The translations under genes were made by a program, and so were the position numbers. From contig JAHCBC010000001.1 of assembly GCA_019634595.1 (NCBI GenBank), positions 1,271,174 through 1,335,173 on the forward strand: a stretch of 64,000 nucleotides of DNA. Direction: 5' to 3'. This DNA comes from Akkermansiaceae bacterium. GTDB taxonomy: Bacteria > Verrucomicrobiota > Verrucomicrobiia > Verrucomicrobiales > Akkermansiaceae. How positions within the stretch are numbered: the stretch's first letter is position 1; every line of letters begins with the position of its first letter. The notes under the pieces were generated by a model. The model did not search any database, was not told where the DNA came from, and was given only the letters and a program-made list of their open reading frames with translations. This document shows positions 48,283 through 64,000 of the stretch, one piece after another.

Positions 48283-48372
48283 GGAACGATGGCTGAGTGG
48301 TCGAAAGCACTCCCTTGCTAAGGGAACGTACGGGTAACCGTACCGAGGGTTCGAATCCCTCTCGTTCCGCCA
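48283..48372 (+). tRNA. tRNA-Ser (GCT anticodon)
   Basis: Ninety bases with a 7-bp acceptor (GGAACGA paired to TCGTTCC), anticodon GCT in the loop CTTGCTAAG, a long variable arm (CGTACGGGTAACCGTACC region) typical of class II tRNAs, T-loop GGTTCGAATCC, discriminator G and an encoded CCA. It marks the left edge of the mobile region. Confidence 0.97.
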
Positions 48373-48581: not shown

Positions 48582-49622
48582 TCAGGCAACCGCATCGCGG
48601 TCAAATCGCTCAAACCCGAGGATTTCTCTCTGCTTTTCCCAAGCCATCTCTCTCATTTCAAGCACATCCTGAAGCCGCATCATCGTCGGCTGCTCTCCCT
48701 GCATGATCGCTCTTTTGATGCCCGGAGCCAAATACGCGAAGTTCAGCAGCCTCCGCACATACTCCGGCTTCAATCCGTAAGGCTTCACTACCTCCGTCAA
48801 TCCGGCGTCTGGATTCTCCATCAATTTCATCCGCCAAAACTCCCCTTGAGCAAGAGCCTGGATCAAGCTCGCTTTCGGCTCCGTCCTCGCCACTGAAACC
48901 ACCTCCCCGGTTTCCCCGTCGAAAATGCGAGTATGGCCGCGACTCCTTTCCAGACTCACTTTGGAAGAGAGAATCGCGCATCCATCCCTCATCGCCATCT
49001 CAACGGTCAAAGCCGTTGAGACTTCACCGCCCCCGGACAGCGGACTTTGAAGCAGCCTCAGCAGTCCCTCAGGGAAGACATGCACCTGGATCGAATCCTT
49101 GGACACCACCACCTTCGGAGCCAACAATTCAGTAACGCGCCCGAGATCGTGAGCAGACGAAACTTTACCGATCGATTCGGCACCGATCTTCAGTCGCGCC
49201 TGAACCTGATCCTCACTCCACTGCTCCTCGACAACCAGCCTGTTCAATAGCGGAAGCCCACCCACCAGAATCTGTTTCACCGATTCTTCCAGCAGTTCCG
49301 CATTCAACGTCCGGATCGCCAGTCCTTCATATCCACGTCGGATCGCCTGCTGCGAAACATAATATCGATACCGCAGTCTCTCCTTCGTCCCGTTCGCTCG
49401 TTTGCAGCTCTTGTTGGTGTAGGTAGGGGTCAACGCAAATCCTTCGATGCATTGGACGAAGCCCTTTAGTGGATGAATCAGCTTAGTCCTCTTGATCAGC
49501 TGCTCGTTGAGATGCCCCGTCTCACCATTCACCCCCGGCTGGTTCTCTTTGAGCTTCTTCTGCGCCTGCTCCCACAACACCTCGGTAACGATCGCCTCGT
49601 GCTCCCCGGGATAAAGTTCCCC
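48582..49622 (-). pseudogene. Serine recombinase, C-terminal fragment
   Basis: About 347 codons of a large serine recombinase without its catalytic N-terminus. The fragment begins at an ELYPGEHEAIV-type motif, typical of the recombinase domain, has one Cys left from a zinc ribbon, and continues with the helical tail of this family. The frame meets a stop at 49623-49625 exactly where a different, also 5'-truncated frame begins on the other strand. The resolvase domain with its catalytic Ser is missing, so it cannot act. Confidence 0.75.
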
Positions 49623-50203: not shown

Positions 50204-53200
50204 TTATCTTGTCGACACAATCGGATTTCCTTCCACCATCCCGATTCTCAATCCCAACCGACCGGCAAGTGGCTCGATCGCTTGTAGCGTGGAAGACCGA
50301 AGCCAACGATCGGCAATTGACGGGTAGAGAACAATCAAGCTGTCCAGAGCCTCCCGATTGCCTCCCCTAGCAATAGCAATGATGGCCGAAGAAGCAGAAT
50401 TGGCCGCCCCTTTCAAAACGACTTTTTCTAGATTGGCAATTGGAAGACGACGTCCACGCGCTATCAGAAGTTCGATTGCTTGCCCTAGGTCCATACTACA
50501 AGGATCATTTTCTGAAACCTGCAAGGGGTCTGACACGATCTCACTCAATAGATCTTCAAGTTCCTCATCCAACCCAGGCATACCCAATTTTATCAAATCC
50601 CGTACGAGGCAAAGTCGTTGGAGGGACGAATAGTCTGACTCGCCGAGCCAATCCTGGAGGAGTGAGAAAGGAGCGGTCCTCCCGGGGTGGCGAGGAATGG
50701 ACTGCACTGCGCCCGAACTAAGACCACACATATCCAACTTCGCTGTAAGTCCGGTTACAAAAGAATTCACCAATTCACAGCGACTCTCGGGAGACCACTG
50801 TTCGCGGGAAATGCGCGCAACTGCTTCCTCTACCGGCTCGCGCTCCACCAGATGTCCAAGCAATGAGAGCGTTCCTTTGATGATAGGTAAATTCTTTTGA
50901 GTGAAGCCGTCAAAGAGTTCATGCAATACCTCTCGATTTCCTCCGTTCAATTGATAGAGCAGCGCGCGCTCACGAATGCCAGGAGGAAGTTCCGATTGAG
51001 CCAGGATTTCCGACAATCTTATGGAGCGGATTGGCGGATCCCATCTCATGACCAGGTATTCAAAAAAACTATGAATACGGTTTTCACTAATACCTTGTGT
51101 CTTTAAAATATCCACAACGGTCACAATATCCGTCTTCGGATCTGACATCGCTTGCGCAGCAAATGATAACCCGTAATAGGCGTGGCTTTTGAGAGCTAAT
51201 TGAATGAGCGGCTTTGCGCGACGATCAAGTGCCCCGTCAAGTCGACCGAATGCCGCCAACCTTACGTAAACTGGCAGATTCTTGTCGAGAGCTACTGCGA
51301 GACAGGCAGACCGAGACAAAGTCCCAGGAGCCATGTGATAAATCAGAGAAGCAATTGTATTGGATTCCTCCAATCGCAGATTCCCTCGGCGGGCTCGCTT
51401 TACAAAGAAATCCAGAGCTTCTTGCCCGAGGCGGTCGATCTCGCCTTGGAACTCTCCAAGGCTCCACAAGTATTCTGCTCTCTCGTCGAGAAATTTTCTA
51501 AGTATTTCCATCGAAAAGGCGCGATCCCGAAGTCCGGCCAGAATTCGGTCGGAGCCACAGTGAATCAAGGAAATGTCCCCAAGTTTCTTTCTAACTGAAT
51601 CGGGCAAAGAATCGACGAAACCATCTGCAAGAATACCACCAACTGACTCGGCAATGTGTCTTGATTTGGAATCCCATACGCTGGCTAACCGATCTGCAAT
51701 TTCTAAACGATCCGCTTCCGAAACTTTCATTCCATTCGCAACGGACCGACCAAGAAGACGCAGTTCCGTATAGAAAACATCGCCTTCCCCATCCAGCAGG
51801 AGTCTCACAATCTGGGCTGGTTCCGGATGTCGCTCCAAAGTGAATTGCAAAGCTTGGGCCCATGGCCGCCGGAAGATCATCGCCAAGCGCTGAGGGATTT
51901 CCCGGATACGATGTTCAAGTAAGTGTCTAGCGGCTAAGTACTCCTGAACAATAGGAAAGGGAAAAACGAATCGCGTGATGGAGGTTCGGCGCAACACGCC
52001 TCTCTTTACCAGTGCTTCCCTGATGCAATCACAGGCGACCTGGGAATCTATCTTCCGTATACATTGATCAAGCAATTCTCCATGGACGCCGATTTCGTCA
52101 CGCTCAAGAGCCTCGAATGCGGCTAGCTCCGCTATCGATCGGATCATCGATGAATCAAGGCCGTCTTTCTCGGTTACTTTGAATCGTCCTGGCCGAAATA
52201 GGATCTCCAGATAGTCTTCAAGGAGCTCCGCTCTGTTGCTCGGAAAGCGCCCGCTTTCGCGTGATGTCACTAGTAGTAGAGCGAGGAAAAGGGGTATACG
52301 TATCAGCCGAGCAATATCCGGATGTGATTGGATGCCATCAAGAATACTTCGACCTGCTTCATCCTCTCGCGGACAATACGCAGTGACAAAGGCACCAATC
52401 TGATCATGATCCAGCATGGCAATCTCAACAAGCTGGGCTCCGTTTGGTGCGGCGAGTGCAGCTGCATCTCGAACGGTCAAGAGCCAACGGACGATTGGGT
52501 AGCGGAATGAAAAGACCTTCAGCCTCTCGACGACGATCAGGCGGCGCTCACTGGAAACTTCATCGAGTCCGTCCAGAAAAAGGACTACTGAGCCAACATC
52601 GGCTGCGCTGCGCCAGTCAATCGAAACGTCGAATTTTCGATTAACGCGTTCCTGCAGGAAATCAACAATACTCAGATCGGAATCAGCTAGATCGGATACA
52701 GCAACGACTGCAGGAAGTAAGCCCGACAGAGCCACTCGTTGCGCGATCGCTTGGATAATGGTACTTTTGCCAAAACCTGGTCCCGCAACTAAGATCGCAT
52801 AGGGAAGATCATCATTGGGGAAATTTCTCAGGTCGATATCGGAGTTAGACATCCAAAAAGACCAACTGGGAAGATCATCATCGAAATCTGATGGGCGATT
52901 GCGGTCATAACGTTGGCAAGATGGCCATATGAAAGCTTCCTCCGCAGGCAATGATACACTGGTTCCGGGTACTTCTATTACGGCGTTACTCGCAACTATG
53001 TGTCTATACCGTGAGGCTCCCCATGATGGTGGATCGTTGACGGTAACCTTCCAGTAAGACCGAAGTCGATCGCAAAGAGAAACAGGATTGAACTCGGCCC
53101 GGATTCCTGCCCCTTCGCCTACAATACCAACCAGGATTTCGAAAAGCTGCTCAGTAGGAACTGAGGCTGCGGGTATCCAATTTGGTGCCGCATCGCGTTC

Positions 53201-53713
53201 GATACCATCAGCGACAATAATGGTGAAGTCGATTCTTTTAAGCAATTGCCAAACGGCGTGGCGGTCGCGATTTATGACCCTTGAGATCGATTCGATCAGT
53301 TTAAGCTGCGTGGATGTCAGTCGGACCTCCCACTCATCAGACCCCGAGCTTCCAGACCGTTCCCCGCAAGCTCTTAAATCGCGAGCTAGCAAAGTAGCTT
53401 CGCCAAGAACGAGCTCAATTCGGTCTCCGGCATCAGACAGTTCAGCCATCTGTGCTTGGAACGAGTTCCAGAGATTCGACCAGGGCTTCCCACGAGAATC
53501 AAGCGACCTTTTGGCTTGGATGTATCGTTTAGATCCGTCTGCGAATGTTACCACGGTGTCGTCGACATGCGTAAGACCTTCGGTTCTTACCATCATCGGT
53601 CGATCTGCCTGTCGGTGCCTACGAGGATCAATCATTCGGCCCAGGTAGAGAGCTGTAATCGAGTTCTGGTATCTGATTCCGGCTTGATTCGCGGGCCCTC
53701 CACTCTCTTTCAT
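50204..53713 (-). CDS. Nuclease-NACHT STAND protein, candidate antiphage defence
   Basis: 1169 residues. The N-terminus (about 1-200) reads like a DUF4297/Cap4-type PD-(D/E)xK nuclease: GGPANQAGIRYQNSITALYL, acidic residues Glu45 and Asp52, and the IQAK motif (Gln66, Lys68). A NACHT-type NTPase follows, with Walker A GPGFGKST (311-318) and Walker B FLDGLDE (381-385). The rest is helical-repeat sequence that could sense an invader. In Avs and bNACHT systems ligand binding causes assembly and DNA cutting. The phage trigger is unknown. All core motifs are intact. It lies in a mobile, repeat-rich region. Confidence 0.8.
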   Translation of the reverse strand: MKESGGPANQAGIRYQNSITALYLGRMIDPRRHRQADRPMMVRTEGLTHVDDTVVTFADGSKRYIQAKRSLDSRGKPWSNLWNSFQAQMAELSDAGDRIELVLGEATLLARDLRACGERSGSSGSDEWEVRLTSTQLKLIESISRVINRDRHAVWQLLKRIDFTIIVADGIERDAAPNWIPAASVPTEQLFEILVGIVGEGAGIRAEFNPVSLCDRLRSYWKVTVNDPPSWGASRYRHIVASNAVIEVPGTSVSLPAEEAFIWPSCQRYDRNRPSDFDDDLPSWSFWMSNSDIDLRNFPNDDLPYAILVAGPGFGKSTIIQAIAQRVALSGLLPAVVAVSDLADSDLSIVDFLQERVNRKFDVSIDWRSAADVGSVVLFLDGLDEVSSERRLIVVERLKVFSFRYPIVRWLLTVRDAAALAAPNGAQLVEIAMLDHDQIGAFVTAYCPREDEAGRSILDGIQSHPDIARLIRIPLFLALLLVTSRESGRFPSNRAELLEDYLEILFRPGRFKVTEKDGLDSSMIRSIAELAAFEALERDEIGVHGELLDQCIRKIDSQVACDCIREALVKRGVLRRTSITRFVFPFPIVQEYLAARHLLEHRIREIPQRLAMIFRRPWAQALQFTLERHPEPAQIVRLLLDGEGDVFYTELRLLGRSVANGMKVSEADRLEIADRLASVWDSKSRHIAESVGGILADGFVDSLPDSVRKKLGDISLIHCGSDRILAGLRDRAFSMEILRKFLDERAEYLWSLGEFQGEIDRLGQEALDFFVKRARRGNLRLEESNTIASLIYHMAPGTLSRSACLAVALDKNLPVYVRLAAFGRLDGALDRRAKPLIQLALKSHAYYGLSFAAQAMSDPKTDIVTVVDILKTQGISENRIHSFFEYLVMRWDPPIRSIRLSEILAQSELPPGIRERALLYQLNGGNREVLHELFDGFTQKNLPIIKGTLSLLGHLVEREPVEEAVARISREQWSPESRCELVNSFVTGLTAKLDMCGLSSGAVQSIPRHPGRTAPFSLLQDWLGESDYSSLQRLCLVRDLIKLGMPGLDEELEDLLSEIVSDPLQVSENDPCSMDLGQAIELLIARGRRLPIANLEKVVLKGAANSASSAIIAIARGGNREALDSLIVLYPSIADRWLRSSTLQAIEPLAGRLGLRIGMVEGNPIVSTR

Positions 53714-53864
53714 AAGTGTAGATTACCGCGTATTGATTATGCACCAATCTCAATTTTGCTGGCCTATTTTGATCGGGCCTTCCGACAAGTGCCTTCTATG
53801 GAGCTTTCGGCCAGCTCCAGTCAATGTTTTCAATGTCCAATATTTGAAGTAAGAACGAGATCTA

Positions 53865-54732
53865 GGCCGTGTTTTGAAACTCAAAGCGAATGGATCCAGT
53901 CGAGTGTTGCAGCCAACAGGATAAAATTCATGAACACCATTGCCAGCTTGTCGTAACGCGTCGCGATCCGCCGCATGCGCTTGATCCGCTGCAAGAAATT
54001 CTCCACCTCGTGCCGGTTCCGATACCAACCTTTGTGGAAGTCGACTTCGCCGTGTTGCCTCTCCGCAGCAGGATGCAGCTCCGGCTTCCCGAGCGCTCCA
54101 CAGCCTCCCGCATGGCACGCCTGTCGTAGGCTTTGTCCGCCACCACCCGGCATCCTTCCAGTCCGTTCACCAACCCCTGGCCGATCTTCGCGTCGCTGAC
54201 CTGTCCCGCCGTCAAGGCCGCCCGGACCAACCGGCCCTTCCCGTCCACGACGGCATGAAGTTTCGTGTTCGCCCGGCCCTTGGTGAATCCGATGAGCTGG
54301 GCCTGTTTGCCGCCCTTTCCGCCGCAAGCGTCCTGATGGACCTTCAAATGGCTGGCATCGACAAACCTCAGCCTGCCGGTCTGATGTCGGGCCAACGAGC
54401 GGACCGCGGAAGCCCAGACACCGTTCTCGCACCACAACCGCCATCTGCCGTAAACCGTTTGCTTTGGACCGAACTGCGGCGGAGCGGCCCGCCAGGGGCA
54501 ACCGGTCCTGAGGATGTAAATCATGGCCGTCATCAACATGCGGTGGTCGGAAGGAGGCCGGCCACCAAACCCCGGAATGTTCACTCTGAGCGAGACCCGG
54601 GACTATGTTAATTTTTTTAGTGCCATCCACAGCGCGTCGGAAATCTGGAAGTAGGAACACGGTCGTTTCATCGACCCGGACTCTAACAGCAACCGGTTCG
54701 CAGCCAATCATTTCCAGTTCTCAAACACGGCC
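53865..54732 (-). mobile_element. IS5-family insertion sequence, complete but with a dead transposase
   Basis: An 868-bp element bounded by imperfect terminal repeats: GGCCGTGTTTTGAAACT at 53865 and its partner GGCCGTGTTTGAGAACT (read on the minus strand) at 54732. Both ends are flanked by TA (53863-53864 and 54733-54734), the likely target duplication. It carries one transposase frame, disrupted. A related copy in the same orientation starts at 63909, and a fragment in the opposite orientation lies at 62040-62302. Confidence 0.85.
53881..54671 (-). pseudogene. IS5-family transposase, inactivated
   Basis: The start (ATG 54671) leads into an ISDALW segment typical of IS5-family transposases. 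A TAG interrupts codon 23 (54603-54605). The frame then goes on through GRPPSDHRMLMTAMIYILRTG and the DDE region (Asp in RFVDASHL, Asp in ADKAYDR). Near 54045 one base is missing compared with the 62040-62302 fragment, which moves the last part (RHEVENFLQRIKRMRR, with the catalytic Glu) into another frame. Confidence 0.85.
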
Positions 54733-54930
54733 TAGCGAAGCGGAACATCTTGCATTCAGCATTATGCCCATTGGAACAAGCATGCATCATATCAGAACGC
54801 ATCGCAAAAAGAACCTCTTAAAGCAGGATTCACTTCATCGGGCACGAAACAAATCGTGTAATGGAATCCATAATGGCAAGTCATAGAATAATTCTCGGAG
54901 TCACCATCGCAAAGCCATAAAAAGAATAAG
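54733..54930. other. Short intergenic region right of the IS
   Basis: No gene seen. AT-rich sequence between the IS end and the methyltransferase stop. It may hold the terminator of the biosynthetic operon but no clear hairpin with a T-run was found. Confidence 0.4.
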
Positions 54931-55926
54931 TTAACCAAGTAATAAAACGTGAATAAATTGACTGGAACGCCGATCCTCGGCCGCGTGAATCAGTCGGCAA
55001 CCGGCCTTTTCATAAACCTCGTTCCAGCCATCCAGATTTGCTGGGGGGATGCCTTGTCCTGAGATTAGCTGCGCGTAGTCGTGGAGCAGAGTTTCTCTTA
55101 TACCCGTCGCTATATCTACACCGAGTCGACCATAGTAATCTGAAACCAACAACAACTTTCCCGGCAACTTCTTGCGGAGTTGCCGCATCCAGTGGATGGC
55201 CTCTTGTTTTCCGCCTCCGAACATCTCGTTCATAACATGGCAGGCACTGATAGCTTTTACCTTTGCAAGCATATTTGGAGTAAAAGACTCAAAGAGACGC
55301 TTCGAATCGCAACAGATTAATTTAATTCTCTTTCCAAGATTTTTATCACGAATCCGCGCACGTGCTAATTTGCACATCCAAGGGTTGGGTTCTAAACCCC
55401 ATCCAGTAAACTTAGCGTCAGCCGCCGCCAAGTGCAGCAATAATGAAGCAGGGCCGCACCCAATATCAATGAGAGCATCAATTTCGAGTTTCTTGATGAA
55501 TTCCGGAACACTCCCGAGTGCTTCGGTGCTAGCAGCCCCAAAGGCACGTGCATGACGGACATCGTCCACCAAGCTCGACGCAAGCGACGGCCGGCGCAGA
55601 ATTTTCTGGACCTCCGAGGCATTTTCCCGATAGGCGCCAGCATAGAGACCAAGCATAAACTCGGCGTGGGCATCATAATTTTTCGCTGTACCGTAGAAAT
55701 CACCCTGCCGGATCAATAGATCTGTCCGCGCATGCAAAAAATTGAGCAATCCCCTCAACATCCCGCAATTCAATTTGAATTTGGCAGCAAGCTCCTCCGC
55801 GGTAGATGGGACTACTGCCAGTTGCACCAACACCCCAAGGTCATGTAAAGCTGCGGCGGCATGACCAAGGTGCATCCCTTCCACCAGATCTAGCGCAGAA
55901 AATTTTCTAGGTTTCGATCTACTCAT
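54931..55926 (-). CDS. Class I SAM-dependent methyltransferase of the RiPP cluster
   Basis: 331 residues. An N-terminal winged-helix region (about 10-85, ALDLVEGMHLGHAAAALHDLG) like that of O-methyltransferases, then a Rossmann methyltransferase domain with the SAM motif DIGCGPASLLLHLA (about 163) and LEPNPWM. The start at 55926 overlaps the stop of the radical SAM gene by eight bases, so it is the last gene of a translationally coupled set. In the known aminopyruvatide pathway the methyltransferase acts on the MNIO-modified C-terminal residue; the same role is inferred. Confidence 0.85.
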   Translation of the reverse strand: MSRSKPRKFSALDLVEGMHLGHAAAALHDLGVLVQLAVVPSTAEELAAKFKLNCGMLRGLLNFLHARTDLLIRQGDFYGTAKNYDAHAEFMLGLYAGAYRENASEVQKILRRPSLASSLVDDVRHARAFGAASTEALGSVPEFIKKLEIDALIDIGCGPASLLLHLAAADAKFTGWGLEPNPWMCKLARARIRDKNLGKRIKLICCDSKRLFESFTPNMLAKVKAISACHVMNEMFGGGKQEAIHWMRQLRKKLPGKLLLVSDYYGRLGVDIATGIRETLLHDYAQLISGQGIPPANLDGWNEVYEKAGCRLIHAAEDRRSSQFIHVLLLG

Positions 55927-57910
55927 GGATAGCAATCGTCGACTTTGTATCAACAGCCCCGGAAAAGCTCACCGGGACTATAATTCTTCGCGAGGCTAAG
56001 TCAGCGAAAAAGTCCATGTCAAGGCTGCTCAGTCCGGCTGATCGAAGGATCATACCCATAACATCGTTACAAGATCTTGGTTGTTCAAACAGCTCAATAA
56101 TTGCAGCTATACCTTCGTTGATCTGGAACATCTGAGAGCTACCGGAAGCGATCTCTAATAAATAGACACCACAATTCGCGATGTAGGAATTATCAAGGAG
56201 CGCTTCACTACCTACTCGTCTGATTTGATCGACTACTTCGTTGCAGTCGTGTAGATCGTAGAGCACATGGATGGCCGCGCTAGCTTGGTAGAGCCTATCT
56301 GGATCAAACGGAGTTCCGGCTTGAAGCGGTTCTCGAACAGGTTCCATGATTGCGTCGCCAGATCTTAACGCGTAGCGGAAAATCGAAGTCAGGTGATGCG
56401 CCACGCCAAACCGCCAGCGCACAAACTCCTCAATCATGCCCGCTTCCGGCTGGGATAATTTTCCGTTTGACTCGCAAAATTCTCGTAGATCGCCAACTAA
56501 ATTGCTTAGGCGCCCCTCGTACGCACGCAACATGTATTTAAGGACGACCGGTCCAGCGCGTCGCAGCAGCTCAACAGCCTCGACCGCGAAGATGATCCGG
56601 TCTCGCGGCATTGTCGCAGGGAAGTAATAATAGGTCTGAAAAATCTCCGGGTTTTCGACAACGAGATCCTCGTCATGCTCAGCGACCAACATAGCGTTGT
56701 AACGACCTGCGTAGCCATCGTATTTGACCGTTTCGCCCAGCTTGTCAAAGAGAGGTGTACCGGGCTCTGGCGCGAGCATGTGGAGTTGCGGCAGGCAAGT
56801 CGGACTGAAGAACTTCCCCAACATATCCAAAGTGTCATTCTGGTCCTCAGGGAGTTCTTCTGGAAAGCCGGTTATAAATGACGCAGTGATGTCGATGCCC
56901 AGGCGATCTGCGTGCTGTAATGTGGGTTCCACCAAGTCGAGATTGAGGCGTTTCTGGCAGACCTGCTGCATCCTGACTGATCCTGTCTCGATACCGAAAT
57001 AAAGACTTACGCATCCAGACTCAGCCATTCTTGTAAGAAGCTCCTTATCTACGCAGTCGATCCTAGCAGAGGCCCGCCAGCGATACCCCCGCCCGTTGAC
57101 AGCCTCGCAAAATTCCATCACCTTGCGCCTGTTCACTGTAAATAAATCGTGATCTAGCTTGAAATCCGAATACCCGTAGCGTTCGTGCAGGATATCAAGC
57201 TCCTGCACCAACCGATCCGCCGATTTTAGTCGGAAGCTACGCTGAAAGAAGCTTGCCGTGGAGCAGAAAGTACAGTGGAATGGACATCCTCGCCCTGCCT
57301 CAATGCGAAGCAAATCAAGGCCGAGATCCTTAACTGGGTAATGATCATACGAGGCAATCGGCAAGCTGTCCAGATCCTGCACGATTGGCTTGCCATCGGT
57401 AAATCGCAATTCGGGCGACTTTTCGAGAGGGCGCCAACTGATTCCGGGAATCTTCTCGAACGCACGGGTTTCCAGATTGTCCAAAACGCGCGCGAAAATC
57501 TCGTCGGCCTCGTGGCGGACGACAATATCAAATTGGGGAAATTTCCCCAAAATCTGCTTGTGTAACATTGTCGCGTGCGGCCCCCCAAGCAAGATCGGTA
57601 GTTCCGGCTGGTGAAACTTAACTATTTGGGCCACGTTCAATGCGAAGAGGAAACTACATCCCAGCGTGGTGAAGCCGAGCGCGTCCGGCCCGTAGGCCAG
57701 AACCTCTGCTGCAGCCCGCTGGTAGAGCGTTGAGTCATACTCCCACTCGCGCCAGCGAATGGCACGTTTAGGATCAATAATCTTGATTGAATGCCCTTGG
57801 GATTCAGCGGCGGCCGCGAGTGCAAGTAAGCCCAAATGCGGGTGGATGTCCATAGTGGCCAGCGAGCCCTCCTCCGGCATTACTAGATTGTCCATGAGCA
57901 GAATTTTCAT
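55919..57910 (-). CDS. B12-binding radical SAM enzyme of the RiPP cluster
   Basis: 663 residues. The N-terminal B12-binding-like domain (about 1-160) contains DIHPHLGLLALAAAAE and LLGGPHAT; the radical SAM domain has the 4Fe-4S motif CPFHCTFC (Cys209, Cys213, Cys216). The C-terminal 80 residues look like a PqqD-type peptide-binding fold (IAAIIELFEQPRSCNDVMGMI). Such enzymes methylate unactivated carbons; in aminopyruvatide biosynthesis the homologue makes beta-methyltyrosine. Starts by overlapping the partner gene (ATGA) and ends overlapping the methyltransferase. Confidence 0.9.
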   Translation of the reverse strand: MKILLMDNLVMPEEGSLATMDIHPHLGLLALAAAAESQGHSIKIIDPKRAIRWREWEYDSTLYQRAAAEVLAYGPDALGFTTLGCSFLFALNVAQIVKFHQPELPILLGGPHATMLHKQILGKFPQFDIVVRHEADEIFARVLDNLETRAFEKIPGISWRPLEKSPELRFTDGKPIVQDLDSLPIASYDHYPVKDLGLDLLRIEAGRGCPFHCTFCSTASFFQRSFRLKSADRLVQELDILHERYGYSDFKLDHDLFTVNRRKVMEFCEAVNGRGYRWRASARIDCVDKELLTRMAESGCVSLYFGIETGSVRMQQVCQKRLNLDLVEPTLQHADRLGIDITASFITGFPEELPEDQNDTLDMLGKFFSPTCLPQLHMLAPEPGTPLFDKLGETVKYDGYAGRYNAMLVAEHDEDLVVENPEIFQTYYYFPATMPRDRIIFAVEAVELLRRAGPVVLKYMLRAYEGRLSNLVGDLREFCESNGKLSQPEAGMIEEFVRWRFGVAHHLTSIFRYALRSGDAIMEPVREPLQAGTPFDPDRLYQASAAIHVLYDLHDCNEVVDQIRRVGSEALLDNSYIANCGVYLLEIASGSSQMFQINEGIAAIIELFEQPRSCNDVMGMILRSAGLSSLDMDFFADLASRRIIVPVSFSGAVDTKSTIAIHE

Positions 57911-58728
57911 CAGCTCACCACCTCGGGGTTAGGTTTTAGAATGAGTATTCCGAGCTCACACAGCTGCCCGATCGATTTGAAAAAATTGTCACCTAGTTCG
58001 CTGCCGCAGCCGAGCTTCTTGCCCAAATCTGCGAGCGAGCACTCGCCGTCGACGAACGAGAGGAGGTAATATCCGAACTCGTCGAGTTCTACTATCTTGA
58101 TAGACTTAGCCTTATCCGGACGCCAGTAGCAGAATTGCCGCACCGCTGCTTTCAGCGCGATGAAACTCGGACGGGCGGATTTAACTACCTCCACGATCTC
58201 CTGTGGATTGTAACGAAACTGGCACAAAATGATATTGCCAAAAACGGATGGCACCGCCGAAACACTAAAAGTGCTTCCAGAACCTGAAAAGTGTTGAACT
58301 TCGGGATCGAATTTTCTTAAGCTGGCCAGTGCGTATTCGTGGCGAATCAGATCCCAAAGCAAACAGTGTTCGACGCTTTCAAAGTCGAGCCATCCCTCCA
58401 TGTAGCCAATCAGATCCCTCTCCCGTTCAAGAGCCGTGTTCGCAAACGATCGGTGGTTCTCGGCGCACCAGGTCGCATACGAAGCGAACAACTCTATTTC
58501 GACCCCTAGGAAGCTCATAAGTCGGTAGGTTGACGGCAGGTCCGGCCTAGTTCCGTTATGTCGCACTTTGATTGTGAGTCCTGAGAACTTCCATAATGCG
58601 TCAAGATCCATCGATTCGGGATCAATCCCTTGTTTCGCCAAGAGCGTCGGATCTTCGCGCCAATGCGAGATTAGCTTGGGATTGTGAACCCCCGCGGCAA
58701 GAACCGCATGCACTAACCGCGCCGTCAT
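57910..58728 (-). CDS. MNIO partner protein with RRE-like C-terminus
   Basis: 272 residues, soluble. The N-terminal 180 residues resemble no common enzyme; the C-terminal 90 (ELDEFGYYLLSFVDGECSLADLGKKLG...LCELGILIL) look like a winged-helix peptide-binding fold of the RRE/PqqD kind. DUF692 enzymes work with such partner proteins (MbnC, TglI), which hold the precursor. The gene overlaps the MNIO gene upstream and the radical SAM gene downstream by four bases each, the tightest linkage in the cluster. Confidence 0.8.
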   Translation of the reverse strand: MTARLVHAVLAAGVHNPKLISHWREDPTLLAKQGIDPESMDLDALWKFSGLTIKVRHNGTRPDLPSTYRLMSFLGVEIELFASYATWCAENHRSFANTALERERDLIGYMEGWLDFESVEHCLLWDLIRHEYALASLRKFDPEVQHFSGSGSTFSVSAVPSVFGNIILCQFRYNPQEIVEVVKSARPSFIALKAAVRQFCYWRPDKAKSIKIVELDEFGYYLLSFVDGECSLADLGKKLGCGSELGDNFFKSIGQLCELGILILKPNPEVVS

Positions 58729-59573
58729 CGGATAGACAGAAGTCTTCGCGACCGTTCGATGTGTGAGTGCAACACGGACTGAGGGAGTTTTTCCCAGTTA
58801 TACTCCAGAGTTAGGGCTTTGGGACGCGCCCGCTTCATCACGCGCTCCAAAAGGTCGAACATCTCGTTTGGAGCCGGAGATGCATGATCATCCCAGACTA
58901 TACCCGACTCGCGTTTCAATCCTGAGATGTGGATCTCAACCACTTTCTCGAGTGGTAAGCGATCGATCTCCTCTAACGGATTAACTCCGGTGTTAAATGA
59001 AGTAATCATGAAGTGACTTAAGTCCAAGAGAAGCTGAACATCACCACGAGAAGCGACCTCGCATATGAAACTGTTCATGTCCATCGTGCTGCCAGGAACA
59101 TCAAAATATTGCGGCGAGTTTTCGAGGATGATCGGGACATTAAAACGCGACCGGTAAGCTGCCAGATTTTTGACCACGCGCGCTACCGTCTCTTCGCTTA
59201 GCTGTGGACAGAGTGTATATGTCAGATTGGTGGGCGTGGTATCTCGGTCCGGTTCCTCGCTAATTCCGTCGGCGGAAACAAAAGCCAAGTGCTCGCCTAT
59301 CCATGGGGTCTGTATACGGGCAGCCTCGTCGCCGATAGCCATCATCGTAAGCTCTGATGGCGGGATAAATCCAGCGATCGACATGCTCGCGCAGTGAAGC
59401 ACGATTGGATATGTCTTTTGGACCGAAATCAATTCCGGCGTGTGCCGCAATTGCTCGAAAGGCATCTCTACGTAATCGATTAACCCGGGGGCGGACGCGA
59501 GAAAATCGAGAACTCCAGGGCCGTATGCAAGGCCCAGCTGCCCCCCCTGCCTGGTTAGGTCAAAAATTTGCAT
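58725..59573 (-). CDS. MNIO family (DUF692) multinuclear iron oxidative enzyme
   Basis: 282 residues, close to the usual length of about 280. A TIM-barrel-type protein with the ligand set of this family: His60 in VLHCAS, Glu94 and His95 in GEHLAF, Glu151 in ENS, Asp184 and His187 in LLLDLSH, His215 in EIHISG, Asp229 and His230 in DDH, and Glu257 in LEYNW. Known members modify Cys (MbnB, TglH) or a C-terminal Asp (ApyH). The nearby peptide ends in Asp and has only one Cys in its leader, which favours the ApyH-type reaction. Second-to-last step order is inferred. Confidence 0.9.
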   Translation of the reverse strand: MQIFDLTRQGGQLGLAYGPGVLDFLASAPGLIDYVEMPFEQLRHTPELISVQKTYPIVLHCASMSIAGFIPPSELTMMAIGDEAARIQTPWIGEHLAFVSADGISEEPDRDTTPTNLTYTLCPQLSEETVARVVKNLAAYRSRFNVPIILENSPQYFDVPGSTMDMNSFICEVASRGDVQLLLDLSHFMITSFNTGVNPLEEIDRLPLEKVVEIHISGLKRESGIVWDDHASPAPNEMFDLLERVMKRARPKALTLEYNWEKLPQSVLHSHIERSRRLLSIR

Positions 59574-59705
59574 AGGCGAACATTGTGAGAGAGCACGTCG
59601 ACAGGAAGAATCACTGCAGCAACGATCTTCGATACCTGCCGCTATTGCCTAATAGGGCAATCTCTTGATTCATCGGACATCTAACTATGCAGTCCTCATT
59701 AACTA

Positions 59706-59927
59706 TTAATCGTAAAGCCAAGAATCGCCAAGCTTCCCGTTGGAAAGGTCCACTTGTTTAACGGTGATCTTAAGTTGACCCTTTTGCAGGCATTGCTGAA
59801 TGGCCGCGATCTTTTTATCGTCGAGTGCCATTTCGAGCGTCAACTCTCCAGTTGGAGACGCAGTCTTCTTCGCTTTCACCGTCTTCTTCACAGCTGCTGC
59901 TTTTTTTGCTGATTTTTTCGCTGCCAT
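59706..59927 (-). CDS. Candidate RiPP precursor peptide ending SWLYD
   Basis: 73 residues. A good ribosome-binding site (AAGGA, about 7 bases before the ATG at 59927). Residues 1-24 are Lys/Ala-rich; 25-62 form the probable leader (ELTLEMALDDKKIAAIQQCL); the end is KLGDSWLYD, with Trp70, Tyr72 and Asp73. It sits between the P450 and MNIO genes on the same strand. The likely core is the last few residues: an aromatic pair separated by one residue, then a C-terminal Asp, the pattern expected for P450 cross-linking and MNIO conversion of Asp to aminopyruvate. Confidence 0.75.
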   Translation of the reverse strand: MAAKKSAKKAAAVKKTVKAKKTASPTGELTLEMALDDKKIAAIQQCLQKGQLKITVKQVDLSNGKLGDSWLYD

Positions 59928-60039
59928 TTTGTTCCTTTTCTTTAGGTTCTAAGATGTTCAACTCCGGCGGATTTCTTCCCCACCGCATACCGACTAAAAT
60001 AGATAGAATACCGTTTGAGTCAAGCCCTCATTACATACT

Positions 60040-61449
60040 TCAACCGAAAGAAAATAATTTTCCAACTGGACCAAGCAGTTTCCCTCCAACTTTCGAAATC
60101 AGCTCATCAGGACAGAGTCGGGAAACTGAAAATTCCAAGCCATCTTTTGGCATGAACATAATGTGCAAACGCCAGTCAATTTCCTGATCTTTAGACAAAA
60201 CCAGATCGAAACGAAAGAGCAAATAGACGAGCGCTGTCGTAATCAAGTGAAGCGCAATCTGCCGACCGATACACACATGGCCGCCAGCTCCAAAGGGAAA
60301 ATATTCGAAGGGTGAAGGTGATTCCACAAGCCAACGTGAGGGAGAAAATGTTTCCGGTTGCGCAAAATGAACGACGTCACGATGAGCCAGGAAAGGACAC
60401 AAGACTATTTCGGTACCTACTGGCAGATCGAAACCACCTAAATTGGTTGGTACCTTTGTGATGCGTACCATGAAAGCGTTCGGTGGAAGCACACGCAACG
60501 TCTCATCAATGACCCTTCGCAGCAGTTTTAGCTTCCCTCGCTGCGTAGCAGAGAGGTATGCATATCCACCAGAATATGTCCTTATCTCATCCCTCAATTC
60601 AGCTCGCAGCTCAGGAAGCTGCGAAAGGATTAGTAGTATCCACGTCATCGAGACCGCCATCGGCTCGCTAATTGAGACGAAAAAAATGTTGCTGTGACCA
60701 ACAGCCTCATCCTCACTGATTAAGTTCCCAGGGGTGACCTCTAGTGTCGCGACTTTCGCCAAAATGCCTCGGCCGGAATTGGCAGGATCAGCCCGACAAT
60801 CTCGCACGAATATTCGCAGCTCCGCATCCAAACTATGTCCGAGAAGGGAGAGTTCTTCATGCAGTGTCGATTGGCCGCGGAGAGCCGATGAGGAAACTTC
60901 CCGGCGGAGCTGAAAGTAAGCTCTCAGCAAATTACTCAATTCCTCGCACCGAACGTGATGATCTCCAAACAACACACGGCAGCCGACTTTGAACATCAGT
61001 TCGCGCATTTGTTGTAACGGGTCGATTATGGAATCCCAAATTTCTGTACATTCGTCCAAAGCGGTGAGGATTAAATCTTCGTATCCCTTGACGTTGACCT
61101 CGCTCAAAACCTTATTTAAAAATCGCTTTTGCAAAGCGTGTTCATCGCCCAACATGCTGTGAAGGCTCCGGTTCAGGTTAATCAGGTTGTCGGGAAGTCC
61201 CAGCTTAAGGGCCGCGGATTGAGGTAATCCGAAGGTATCGATATCGCTGAATACGGCACGTTGAAATTCGGTTCCAAACAAAGCAATCGTGCCCGGGCAC
61301 TCGGTCGCACGAGAGAAAATCGCGTTACCTTCTCTGAGGACGAAAGCATTTCCGTGCTCATCCCGAGCATGTCGCAAAAATGCAAACGGATCGAACTCGA
61401 AATTTTCGAAGTTCGATACTCGCGGAAGCCCAGTCGGCAGTGGATCCAT
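60040..61449 (-). CDS. Cytochrome P450 of the RiPP cluster
   Basis: 469 residues, a soluble P450. ExxR in the K helix is Glu316-x-x-Arg319; the heme loop FGAGGHVCIG gives the thiolate Cys393. The I helix reads FVSISEPMAVS where the usual pattern is A-G-x-D/E-T, so the acid-alcohol pair for oxygen activation is replaced. P450s with this kind of change often catalyse radical coupling; in aminopyruvatide synthesis the P450 forms a biaryl bond between two Tyr. Here the likely substrate is the Trp70-Tyr72 pair of the neighbouring peptide. A redox partner gene is not in the window. Confidence 0.88.
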   Translation of the reverse strand: MDPLPTGLPRVSNFENFEFDPFAFLRHARDEHGNAFVLREGNAIFSRATECPGTIALFGTEFQRAVFSDIDTFGLPQSAALKLGLPDNLINLNRSLHSMLGDEHALQKRFLNKVLSEVNVKGYEDLILTALDECTEIWDSIIDPLQQMRELMFKVGCRVLFGDHHVRCEELSNLLRAYFQLRREVSSSALRGQSTLHEELSLLGHSLDAELRIFVRDCRADPANSGRGILAKVATLEVTPGNLISEDEAVGHSNIFFVSISEPMAVSMTWILLILSQLPELRAELRDEIRTYSGGYAYLSATQRGKLKLLRRVIDETLRVLPPNAFMVRITKVPTNLGGFDLPVGTEIVLCPFLAHRDVVHFAQPETFSPSRWLVESPSPFEYFPFGAGGHVCIGRQIALHLITTALVYLLFRFDLVLSKDQEIDWRLHIMFMPKDGLEFSVSRLCPDELISKVGGKLLGPVGKLFSFG

Positions 61450-61489
61450 CGCTTACTCTTTCTTAATTCCTTACTAAGCCCATAGTCGA

Positions 61490-61855
61490 TGAGCACTTAC
61501 AAAGTAGCCAGCTCGCGCGTAGGGTTGCAAGTCCGGACCGTAATGCTTCTTCATCGCCAGCTTATTGATATCCTCACCCCTCGTTTCAGCACCCGCACCG
61601 AGGTGGAGTACATGAAAAGGTGGCGCACATCGGCGAAGGCGTCCCCTGGAACGACTGACAGAAACGTTCCCAGACCCCGTGCTTTTCCCAGCGGCGGAAG
61701 CGGACGTGGACATGGTTCCAATGGCCGAGCTGGGGCGGCAGATTCCGTCAACGACTGCCGGTGCGCGAGATCCATAGAACCGCTTCGATGAAATCGCGGT
61801 CGGAAAGTGCGGTGTGCGGTCCATCGTTTGATGTCGTCGGGTGATTCACTCATGA
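61490..61855 (-). pseudogene. IS5-family transposase remnant
   Basis: The minus strand encodes an N-terminal transposase segment (DRDFIEAVLWISRTG, then a stop, then LPPQLGHWNHVHVRFRRW, typical of IS5-family proteins) followed by frame-broken sequence. It is unrelated in detail to the element at 53865-54732. The C-terminal half is lost. Confidence 0.75.
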
Positions 61856-62039
61856 GCAGCCTCCTTTTCCTAGGAATGGCGGAAACGAAGCTCGGAACCG
61901 AGCTTATTGCCTGTCCAGCTCTTTAGGGGACGCTCCACTTCTTCATTATGCGAAAGGATAGGATCAAACGAATGTTCGTACAAAATAAGATCATCAACAG
62001 AAACTAGAAGGATGACAGATGCTTATGAATAAAGATTAG
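61856..62039. other. Intergenic stretch between two IS fragments
   Basis: No gene seen; AT-rich sequence with no repeat or promoter that can be called. Confidence 0.4.
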
Positions 62040-62302
62040 AACAGCTGTCCCACGCGGGAGACTGTGGAGCGCTCGCCCCCCCCCCAGTTGCATGCCCGCA
62101 GCGAAGAGGAAACACGCGGAAGGTCGACTTCCACAAAGGTTGGTATCGAAGCCGGCACGAAGTGGAGAATTTCTTCCAACGGATCAAGCGCATGCGACGG
62201 ATCGCGACGCGCTACGACAAGCTCGCGATGGTGTTCATGAACTTCATACTGTTGGCCGTTACCCTCGACTGGATCCAATCGCTTTAGCTTCAAAACTCGG
62301 CC
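62040..62302 (+). mobile_element. Fragment of an IS5-family element (transposase C-terminus and one end)
   Basis: Forward-strand relative of the element at 53865-54732. A homopolymer of C (near 62080) marks damage, then the frame reads KVDFHKGWYRSRHEVENFF to the stop at 62287. The fragment ends in a terminal repeat whose last base is 62302, followed by TA. The 5' two thirds are missing. Confidence 0.8.
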
Positions 62303-62502
62303 TAAGGCCAATCAAAGCGATATTTATAAATATTCCCCTCCCACGCCAGAAGTTCGTCCTGCGCTCCTTTTGTCGATGACTCCGGCTTCGGAAATTCGAA
62401 GGTTACGGACTCAGGCGTCCTTCCAATCACGTCTTGCAGCGATTGCTTCAGTTCGTTGAGCTTCAGGGCTTCAATGATTGCTTGTTCTTGTTCTTTTTTC
62501 AT
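62302..62502 (-). CDS. Candidate second RiPP precursor with aromatic tail
   Basis: 66 residues: an acidic, helical first half (EQEQAIIEALKLNELKQSLQDV) like a leader, and an aromatic tail NIYKYRFDWP. The ATG lies 2 bases after the SPASM gene stop, with an AAGGGA site within that gene's end, so translation is probably coupled. The stop TAG uses two bases of TA and one base from the end of the IS fragment at 62302, so the natural C-terminus may have been longer. Confidence 0.6.
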   Translation of the reverse strand: MKKEQEQAIIEALKLNELKQSLQDVIGRTPESVTFEFPKPESSTKGAQDELLAWEGNIYKYRFDWP

Positions 62503-62504
62503 GT

Positions 62505-63734
62505 CTAATTTCCCTTCTTCATTTGGTTTGTTGCGCCCAGGAGACCTAACCTACTTCGGACCTTATGAGAAATTTCCTTAGATACGATCGGTCTCTCAGG
62601 AGCTGGTTCCCGTGTGTCTACCTTTTTCGGGAGAGCAGCGTCAAATGAGGGGTGTGCCGTGCGCAGCCGGGCCTCAATATGCTCATATATTTTATATAAA
62701 CTTGGGCAGTAATAGTCTCGAGTATTATGTGTTCCAAAATACTTGTAAGCTCTTTGCATACATCCGCCATGACAAACATGTTGCCACTTGCATTTCACAC
62801 AGTGAGGATCAACTTGTCGGTTCTGTGACTCGACAGCCCGCGGAGATGCCAACAATGAGGCGACGGATATTTCGTTAATGTTACCGTAACGCCATTCGGG
62901 CGAACCGCTTAAAGTGGCACATGGATAAACATAGCCGTCGGGATCGGTTGAAAAATGGCTAAATGAACATATTTTTTGAGCAATGCAATCTTGTGGGGTG
63001 CCTGACAAAATTGCCCTCGTCTTAAATACGAAATCCGAGCAGTAAATATAGTCTTTTTTATCAGCATCTATCCAGCGATCAAACAACTTGATCCAAGGCT
63101 CAGCGTAGTCATCGGCCCCTAACCCCAGATCTTCATAGTTGGCGAGGGCATCTCCTGAACGCGTGAGTGGGATTACGTTGAATGGAAGTCGCTCACTCAC
63201 GAGAAAATCCCAAATCTCATCAATGTGCTGAAAAGTTTCCTTGGTAATAACTACACATACCCCTATTTGTAGGCCTTCATCTTTCAGCAGTCGAATCCCT
63301 CGCATTACGGCATCAAACGATCCGCGACTTGGACTGTATTTGCGAGCTGAATCATTGACGTGCTTTGGGCCATCAATGCTCACGGAAACTCTAAATTGAT
63401 TTTCCTTAAAGAATTTCGCCCATTCTGGATTCACGAGGGTCGCGTTCGTCTGAATGGAATTGCTAAAATTCAAGCCGTATGAGTGCGCGGATTGAATCTC
63501 TATCACGTCACGGTAGAAATTCATCTTCGCCAGCATCGGTTCTCCTCCATGCCAAATAAAGTCAACATGCCAAGACGGATTGTTATCTCTAGCATGATCA
63601 AGTGTTTTCCGAATCACGTTCACCAAGGTGCTGCGTTCCATAACGGGAGCCCTCGTGTCTTCGTTGTAACAGTAGGCGCACGACAAGTTGCAAAGGTGCG
63701 TGGGCTTTACGACATTCGTGAAATTTATTGCCAT
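62505..63734 (-). CDS. Radical SAM/SPASM peptide-modifying enzyme
   Basis: 409 residues. Radical SAM motif CNLSCAYC (Cys15, Cys19, Cys22) at the very N-terminus; the middle has IWHGGEPMLAK and SVSIDGPKHVND; the C-terminal SPASM region is Cys-rich (CVKCKWQHVCHGGC and a final CPS), holding two extra clusters. This build is shared by sulfatase maturases and by enzymes that cross-link RiPP precursors. A small peptide gene follows two bases later, which favours the RiPP role. No sulfatase with a Cys/Ser-x-Pro-x-Arg site lies in the window. Confidence 0.88.
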   Translation of the reverse strand: MAINFTNVVKPTHLCNLSCAYCYNEDTRAPVMERSTLVNVIRKTLDHARDNNPSWHVDFIWHGGEPMLAKMNFYRDVIEIQSAHSYGLNFSNSIQTNATLVNPEWAKFFKENQFRVSVSIDGPKHVNDSARKYSPSRGSFDAVMRGIRLLKDEGLQIGVCVVITKETFQHIDEIWDFLVSERLPFNVIPLTRSGDALANYEDLGLGADDYAEPWIKLFDRWIDADKKDYIYCSDFVFKTRAILSGTPQDCIAQKICSFSHFSTDPDGYVYPCATLSGSPEWRYGNINEISVASLLASPRAVESQNRQVDPHCVKCKWQHVCHGGCMQRAYKYFGTHNTRDYYCPSLYKIYEHIEARLRTAHPSFDAALPKKVDTREPAPERPIVSKEISHKVRSRLGLLGATNQMKKGN

Positions 63735-63766
63735 GGCGGTTGCGATATTACTTCATTTCCAAGCAT

Positions 63767-63908
63767 ATGAAAGATCATAAGACCTTGGTTCCGTCAATAA
63801 GTTTTCACGAAGGGACGGAATTAAGATTCCCAGAATTAGGAGGTAACCGTCTACGGTTAGATCGTGTTTGGGAGCCGGAAATGATTGGTCCCGCGCATTT
63901 TACTGCTA
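63767..63908 (+). pseudogene. Short ORF cut off by an IS
   Basis: A 47-codon open frame starting at the ATG at 63767 (divergent from the SPASM gene) reaches the end of the IS copy at 63909, after which it reads into the element. The encoded part (LVPSISFHEGTELRFPEL) is not recognised. It may be the 5' end of a longer gene lost to the insertion. Confidence 0.4.
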
Positions 63909-64000
63909 GGCCGTGTTTTGAAACTCAAAGCGACCGGATCCAGTCGAGGGTTGCGGCCAACAGGATGAAGTTCATGAACACCATCGCGAGCTTGTCGTAG
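63909..64000 (-). mobile_element. IS5-family insertion sequence, partial at window edge
   Basis: Starts with the same GGCCGTGTTTTGAAACT end as the element at 53865, preceded by TA, and in the same orientation. The 92 bases seen differ from that copy at about nine positions. The minus strand encodes the transposase end (KLAMVFMNFILL...DWIRSL, stop at 63925-63927). Confidence 0.85.

Follow-up and report, generated by a model that had tools for sequence, protein, structure and literature searches.

The window analysed here is a 64,000-nucleotide stretch of one contig, and between its positions 54931 and 61449 six intact open reading frames (ORFs), all starting with ATG, lie on the minus strand in the order P450, 73-residue peptide, MNIO, MNIO partner, B12-radical SAM and methyltransferase. 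The first, apyO (60040–61449), encodes a cytochrome P450 (Pfam p450, 2e-39; NCBIfam ApyO, 469.7 bits, cut-off 525). After 112 bases comes apyA (59706–59927), encoding the 73-aa precursor (NCBIfam aminopyruv_ApyA, NF050146, 85.1 bits, cut-off 47), and 132 bases further on apyH (58725–59573), an MNIO of the DUF692 family by NCBIfam (NF050151, 426.8 bits, cut-off 400), Pfam (PF05114) and alignment. The remaining genes are apyI (57910–58728), the MNIO partner (NF050149, 256.2 bits, cut-off 200), apyD (55919–57910), a B12-binding radical SAM enzyme (NF050148, 972.6 bits, cut-off 750), and apyS (54931–55926), a SAM methyltransferase (NCBIfam ApyS, 393 bits, cut-off 400), for which a TTG at 55953, giving a longer ORF, is the second choice of start. 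A first-pass annotation had placed these six genes, and all six ORFs were recovered where it put them. It also had the last four overlapping by 4–8 bases, which holds for the 4 bases shared by apyH and apyI and the 8 shared by apyD and apyS, but not for apyI and apyD, which share 1 base.

The same annotation had called the cluster an aminopyruvatide (apy) type, and the NCBIfam scores bear this out. The Pfam and NCBIfam runs, and several later ones, used query proteins without the initiator Met, and an Apy model was the top NCBIfam match for all six by a wide margin, with best E-values well clear of chance, from 3e-24 (ApyA) to 9e-293 (ApyD). Four of the six proteins (ApyA, ApyH, ApyI, ApyD) exceed the curated Apy cut-offs; ApyS and ApyO lie under their equivalog cut-offs, at 98% and 89% of them respectively. 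Four of nine P450s from other apy loci (L005, L006, L010, L013) are likewise under 525 bits. These belong to a set of 13 named loci obtained by a genome scan with the ApyH alignment, in which two short peptide patterns hit 111 stretches exactly and 13 were retained, a sample from which no count by phylum follows. The order O-A-H-I-D-S, with apyO, is found in 10 of the 13, and a chance gathering of enzymes was rejected on this ground. The apy cluster of B. thailandensis E264 has the same six components by NCBIfam model, and shares with the window the C-terminal Asp, the CBX2-3G motif and the overlapping H-I-D genes (PMC10635010). The window differs in that its P450 and methyltransferase fall below the equivalog cut-offs, its host is of Verrucomicrobia type, and copies of an insertion sequence (IS) lie on both sides. 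No protease or exporter was found among the ORFs identified at the cluster.

The precursor ends in GKLGDSWLYD, with a core WLYD that holds a single Tyr, and has CLQKG at residues 46–50. In alignment it retains CB-X2-G, the aromatics at -4 (Trp70) and -2 (Tyr72), and the C-terminal Asp73. Two features that mark the apy class are thereby present: a precursor with a CBX2-3G motif and a C-terminal Asp, seen as CLQKG and WLYD in a protein scoring 85.1 bits, and a P450 accompanying aromatics at -2 and -4, seen as apyO, W70 and Y72. The core of B. thailandensis E264 is YLYD, and its pocket position is Arg where the window has Lys at the Arg1 position. In Burkholderia, the R1K change left ApyO with roughly 8% conversion, which speaks against a simple transfer of its chemistry to the window, although Lys occurs in 22% of natural precursors (PMC13192836). 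Precursors of the WxY type are already in print, with 53 precursors comprising 25 YxY, 26 WxY and 2 YLW (PMC13192836). Searched against 5.8 billion proteins, ApyA returned only the window's own protein.

An ApyH-type MNIO is class-defining for aminopyruvatide (PMC10635010), and the window's enzyme is of this type at 426.8 bits against 400. NCBIfam scores were 427 bits for ApyH, 114 for BufB, 84 for HvfB, 31 for ChrH and 20 for MbnB, and a Cys-modifying identity was rejected on these scores. The first-pass reading depended on the MNIO standing apart from the Cys-modifying families, and by model scores (427 against 114 for the best Cys-type model) it does; the ApyH tree, of 26 rows, had no Cys-modifying outgroup. 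Homologues were taken as the best 120 of 662 listed, of which 34 were aligned. The tree pairs the window MNIO with the metagenome protein P0002 at 100/100, and the nearest rows are metagenome proteins (P0002, 80–81%); these relatives are unnamed, and therefore no donor can be named. The MNIO profile finds the solved structures 8hci and 3bww, both DUF692 proteins. For an AlphaFold2 model of ApyI (pLDDT 88, 10-row alignment), the two best PDB matches are the A chains in entries of the MNIO complex TglHI (8hi7_A, E 1.9e-6, TM 0.55; 8hci_A, 3.7e-5), and with 256.2 bits against 200 and a predicted fold like the TglHI partner chain ApyI corresponds to the MNIO partner, RRE-bearing in this class. ApyI is predicted to bind the leader. 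The host genome holds a second MNIO gene (contig C2, 166580–167080), whose product is 31% identical to ApyH over residues 81–258.

ApyD keeps the radical SAM CxxxCxxC motif (CPFHCTFC at 209–216), and with 972.6 bits against 750 it supplies the B12-radical SAM enzyme that characterises the class. The runner-up NCBIfam model for ApyS, at 51 bits, is 2-ketoarginine methyltransferase, a keto-acid enzyme. All seven PDB sequence matches of ApyS at E 0.001 are MppJ (E 1e-4 to 8e-4), described as acting on a keto acid (PMC10635010). The likeness of ApyS to both enzymes thus fits methylation of aminopyruvate. In B. thailandensis, ApyD turns the penultimate residue into beta-methyltyrosine, ApyHI converts the C-terminal Asp to aminopyruvic acid, and ApyS methylates the beta-carbon of the latter (PMC10635010).

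The window P450 has the heme motif FPFGAGGHVCIG with the heme Cys kept, and is 31–47% identical to the P450s of nine aligned loci. By the published numbering (PMC13192836), not by alignment with the Burkholderia ApyO sequence, six of the seven published ApyO pocket residues have the same letter (E18, F179, V258 and P263 at offset -2; D425 and I430 at +3), and Asp459 of the Arg pocket is unmatched at a constant offset. ApyO of B. thailandensis joins the two Tyr of YLY, and without it the Asp stays unmodified (PMC10635010). A 2026 preprint describes, by NMR, a bond from Trp N to Tyr C-epsilon2 in ApyO-treated ApyA-Y6W, and regiochemistry that varies by substrate (YLY C–C, WLY N–C, YYY both C–C and C–O) (PMC13192836). 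Since ApyO gives N–C in the Y6W (WLY) variant, the window ApyO likely forms an N–C link between Trp70 and Tyr72. The first-pass annotation had inferred a compound related to that of Burkholderia, where two Tyr are joined, and did not mention the single Tyr of the core here; its family call is supported, and the bond in the window's product probably runs from Trp N to Tyr C and not between two Tyr.

Among the ten apyO loci the precursor ends in WLYD in eight (L005–L011, L017), YLYD in L012 and YKYD in L013, and an aromatic pair precedes the Asp in 10/10 loci with ApyO and 0/3 without it (Fisher p 0.0035). The three loci with no apyO match (L014, L015, L016; L015 covers just 4 kb upstream of its MNIO) have a precursor-like ORF ending in Asp without the aromatic pair. 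These loci (Mesorhizobium, Acidobacteriaceae and Sediminibacterium, respectively) carry ApyH/ApyI-type genes, with apyD also in L014 and L016, and their ApyH proteins are 37–42% identical. Hosts of the P450-bearing loci span Acidobacteriota, Pseudomonadota, Nitrospirota and Actinomycetota, and hosts without a P450 match Pseudomonadota, Acidobacteriota and Bacteroidota; several of all these are metagenome-assembled genomes. The WLYD loci L005–L011 (Bryobacterales, Burkholderiaceae, Nitrospira UBA6909, Dyella, two Lysobacterales and Tahibacter) share gene order and ending with the window, but lie in other phyla, with P450s 39–47% and ApyH 54–63% identical. The Tyr-type loci L012 and L013 group at 97/97 in the tree, in a set of which they were the only Tyr-type members and which was without Burkholderia ApyO. 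In L006 and L009 apyS runs off the contig or locus, and in L012 ApyS was partly matched and left unused; most apy reading frames of L017 (Massilia) are broken, and the ApyH of that locus was excluded from the tree; the L014 ApyH was truncated at the first stop.

The genome's only 16S probe-site match, with one mismatch allowed, is the exact complement of EUB338-III, a probe used for Verrucomicrobia (PMC5673642), and the Verrucomicrobia host proposed at first pass is upheld by this one probe site. That annotation also proposed that the cluster would extend the class to a distant phylum. The Verrucomicrobia-type genome agrees with this, but the class was already known beyond Burkholderia, in other Pseudomonadota and in Actinomycetota (PMC10635010), and the scan found the six-gene set in two metagenome-assembled genomes, one from Acidobacteriota and the other from Nitrospirota. 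Already published are the class itself, the WxY branch and a spread over two phyla; the window is a new member. Verrucomicrobia are absent from the main texts, supplements aside, of PMC12452194, PMC10635010 and PMC13192836, and no text in the literature searched mentions both aminopyruvatide and Verrucomicrobia; the window places the apy gene set in a genome of a phylum not named for the class in those texts. The gene is rare among relatives. Of 387 genomes sampled across the phylum, one gave ApyH at E 1e-60, and of 73 genomes of the genus one gave it at E 1e-40; both times this was the window's genome, and the other 72 of the genus gave none. The 387 are a draw, with at most six first-look candidates scored per genome for ApyH and four for the DynA-type enzyme described below; 311 of the 387 phylum genomes and 48 of the 73 genus genomes are >90% complete and <5% contaminated.

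The cluster sits in DNA of distinct composition. GC content stands at 0.623 as far as the end of a tRNA-Ser gene (48283–48372) and at 0.511 beyond it, with 0.505 against 0.623 as a second figure for the drop, and third-position GC is 0.49–0.60 in the apy genes compared with 0.73–0.81 in three ORFs that precede the tRNA. A complete IS of 874 bp (53862–54735) carries CTAG at each end, has terminal inverted repeats, encodes an IS4/5-type transposase (Pfam DUF4096, DDE_Tnp_1), and occurs at its own site and three other places in the genome. A second copy in the same orientation (63906–64000; 91% over 94 bp) is cut by the contig end at window base 64000, and an inverted relic of the same IS (62003–62304) was aligned at 82% over 300 bp. 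The rarity of ApyH (1/73, 1/387), the low GC and the IS copies make horizontal transfer the probable origin of the apy cluster, on an IS-rich island next to tRNA-Ser. A composite transposon may account for the bracketed 9.2 kb, but its far IS copy is cut and the relic lies inside. Plasmid-borne spread was rejected, with no match in the plasmid collection for ApyH (E 1e-40) or the DynA-type enzyme (1e-60).

Between the cluster and the second IS copy lies a further gene pair, which the first-pass annotation did not mention. A dynobactin-type radical SAM/SPASM peptide cyclase (62505–63734, minus strand) scores 587.3 bits with rSAM_mat_DynA (NF041298) against a cut-off of 450, the enzyme type expected of a dynobactin locus, and was found in one of 387 phylum genomes at 1e-90 and one of 73 genus genomes at 1e-60, each time the window's own. 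Two bases downstream begins a 66-aa precursor (62302–62502, minus strand) with C-terminus WEGNIYKYRFDWP, in which a core WEGNIYKYRF is followed by DWP. Dynobactin A is WNSNVHSYRF with links Trp1-Asn4 and His6-Tyr8 (PMC13067283, PMC11002830); the neighbour shares W1, N4, Y8, R9 and F10 and a radical SAM enzyme above the DynA cut-off, but has Tyr for His6, which carries the C–N cross-link, and the extra DWP tail. The precursor is dynobactin-like, and is not filed as dynobactin because it missed the NF041295 cut-off (14.8 bits against 40, E 0.026, the match confined to the core) and because His6 is replaced by Tyr. As the stop codon overlaps the end of the IS relic in alignment, the DWP tail may have arisen incidentally through IS insertion. 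A search with this precursor against 5.8 billion proteins returned only the window's own protein. The adjacency of these genes to the apy cluster suggests that islands of this type can harbour two or more peptide weapons.

We consider it likely that the six-gene set, in which every gene has its counterpart in the apy pathway and whose genome carries the Verrucomicrobia probe site, would make a small cyclic peptide derived from WLYD, and that it was horizontally acquired on the IS-rich island. The steps are inferred from the enzymes characterised in Burkholderia, by homology. ApyO would join the indole nitrogen of Trp70 to the Tyr72 ring and ApyD would methylate the beta-carbon of Tyr72; ApyH and ApyI, aided by CLQKG, would oxidise and decarboxylate Asp73 to aminopyruvic acid, which ApyS would methylate to 3-amino-2-oxobutanoic acid. 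A protease from outside the cluster's identified ORFs would then free the peptide, whose keto-acid end would likely trap cysteine proteases. The product is a likely cysteine protease inhibitor, by analogy with desmethylaminopyruvatide A, for which inhibition of cathepsins B and L and of papain is reported at 0.3–0.6 nM (PMC13192836). The sub-nanomolar inhibition was measured on the YLY keto-acid, and none is reported for the Y6W cross-linked peptide without the keto acid (PMC13192836). Natural variants are relevant to inhibitor design, as desmethylaminopyruvatide A blocks papain-type proteases at <1 nM (PMC13192836).

Several points count against the reading preferred here. The N–C precedent is a Burkholderia P450 acting on a mutated substrate and not a native WLY pair; ApyO and ApyS fall short of their equivalog cut-offs; Lys takes the place of Arg1 and Asp459 has no match; the protease inhibition belongs to the YLY keto-acid; the identified ORFs include neither protease nor exporter; and a single probe site carries the 16S evidence. 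An otherwise identical pathway in which the P450 forms a C–C (or C–O) bond between Trp70 and Tyr72 would fit the shift of regiochemistry with substrate in the family (PMC13192836) and the mere 31–47% identity of the window P450 to those of the nine loci. It is nevertheless somewhat unlikely, given that the sole WLY product solved in PMC13192836 is N–C and that the Leu pocket letters F179, V258, P263 and I430 are retained. The native WLY substrate-enzyme pair of the window offers a test of whether the Trp-Tyr N–C bond of the mutated Burkholderia peptide occurs in nature. Far less probable is an MNIO that acts on Cys46 to yield a metal-binding peptide like the bufferins or methanobactins. Membership of the MNIO superfamily and the one conserved Cys of the precursor (Cys46) would suit it, but the single Cys also speaks against it, as do the gap between the ApyH model and the best Cys-modifying one and the fact that in Burkholderia the Cys of CBX2-3G is unmodified yet essential for Asp oxidation (PMC10635010).

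The history of the island admits two further readings. The 9.2 kb between the two directly repeated IS copies (54736–63905) would, on one, be a mobile two-compound cassette acquired as one unit by a Verrucomicrobia-type bacterium, encoding a WLY aminopyruvatide that blocks cysteine proteases and a dynobactin-like peptide with a new second ring based on Tyr6. This is quite unlikely; if it were true, Tyr6 for His6 would mean that the radical SAM enzyme forms a new kind of second ring. The other, which we regard as distinctly improbable, sees a decaying island with a silent cluster, whose genes were acquired but are no longer used and lie among IS relics. The IS copies and relics on both sides, the failure to find ApyH in the genus's other 72 genomes and the lack of a recognised exporter or protease gene alongside would agree with decay; six intact ORFs with ATG starts and overlapping genes, and precursor motifs, radical SAM CxxxCxxC and heme Cys that are all kept, argue against it.

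At the GC drop beside tRNA-Ser, a recombinase-like protein (48582–49580) has one match to PHROG 14161 'recombinase' (E 1e-13) and no Pfam match at E up to 1, and possibly marks the island edge. The same low-GC stretch encodes a 1169-aa protein (50204–53713) with a P-loop-like AGPGFGKST, weak AAA-type Pfam matches and one weak PADLOC candidate (PDC-M54A, 18 bits), which we take to resemble a NACHT/STAND-type NTPase, perhaps a defence gene.
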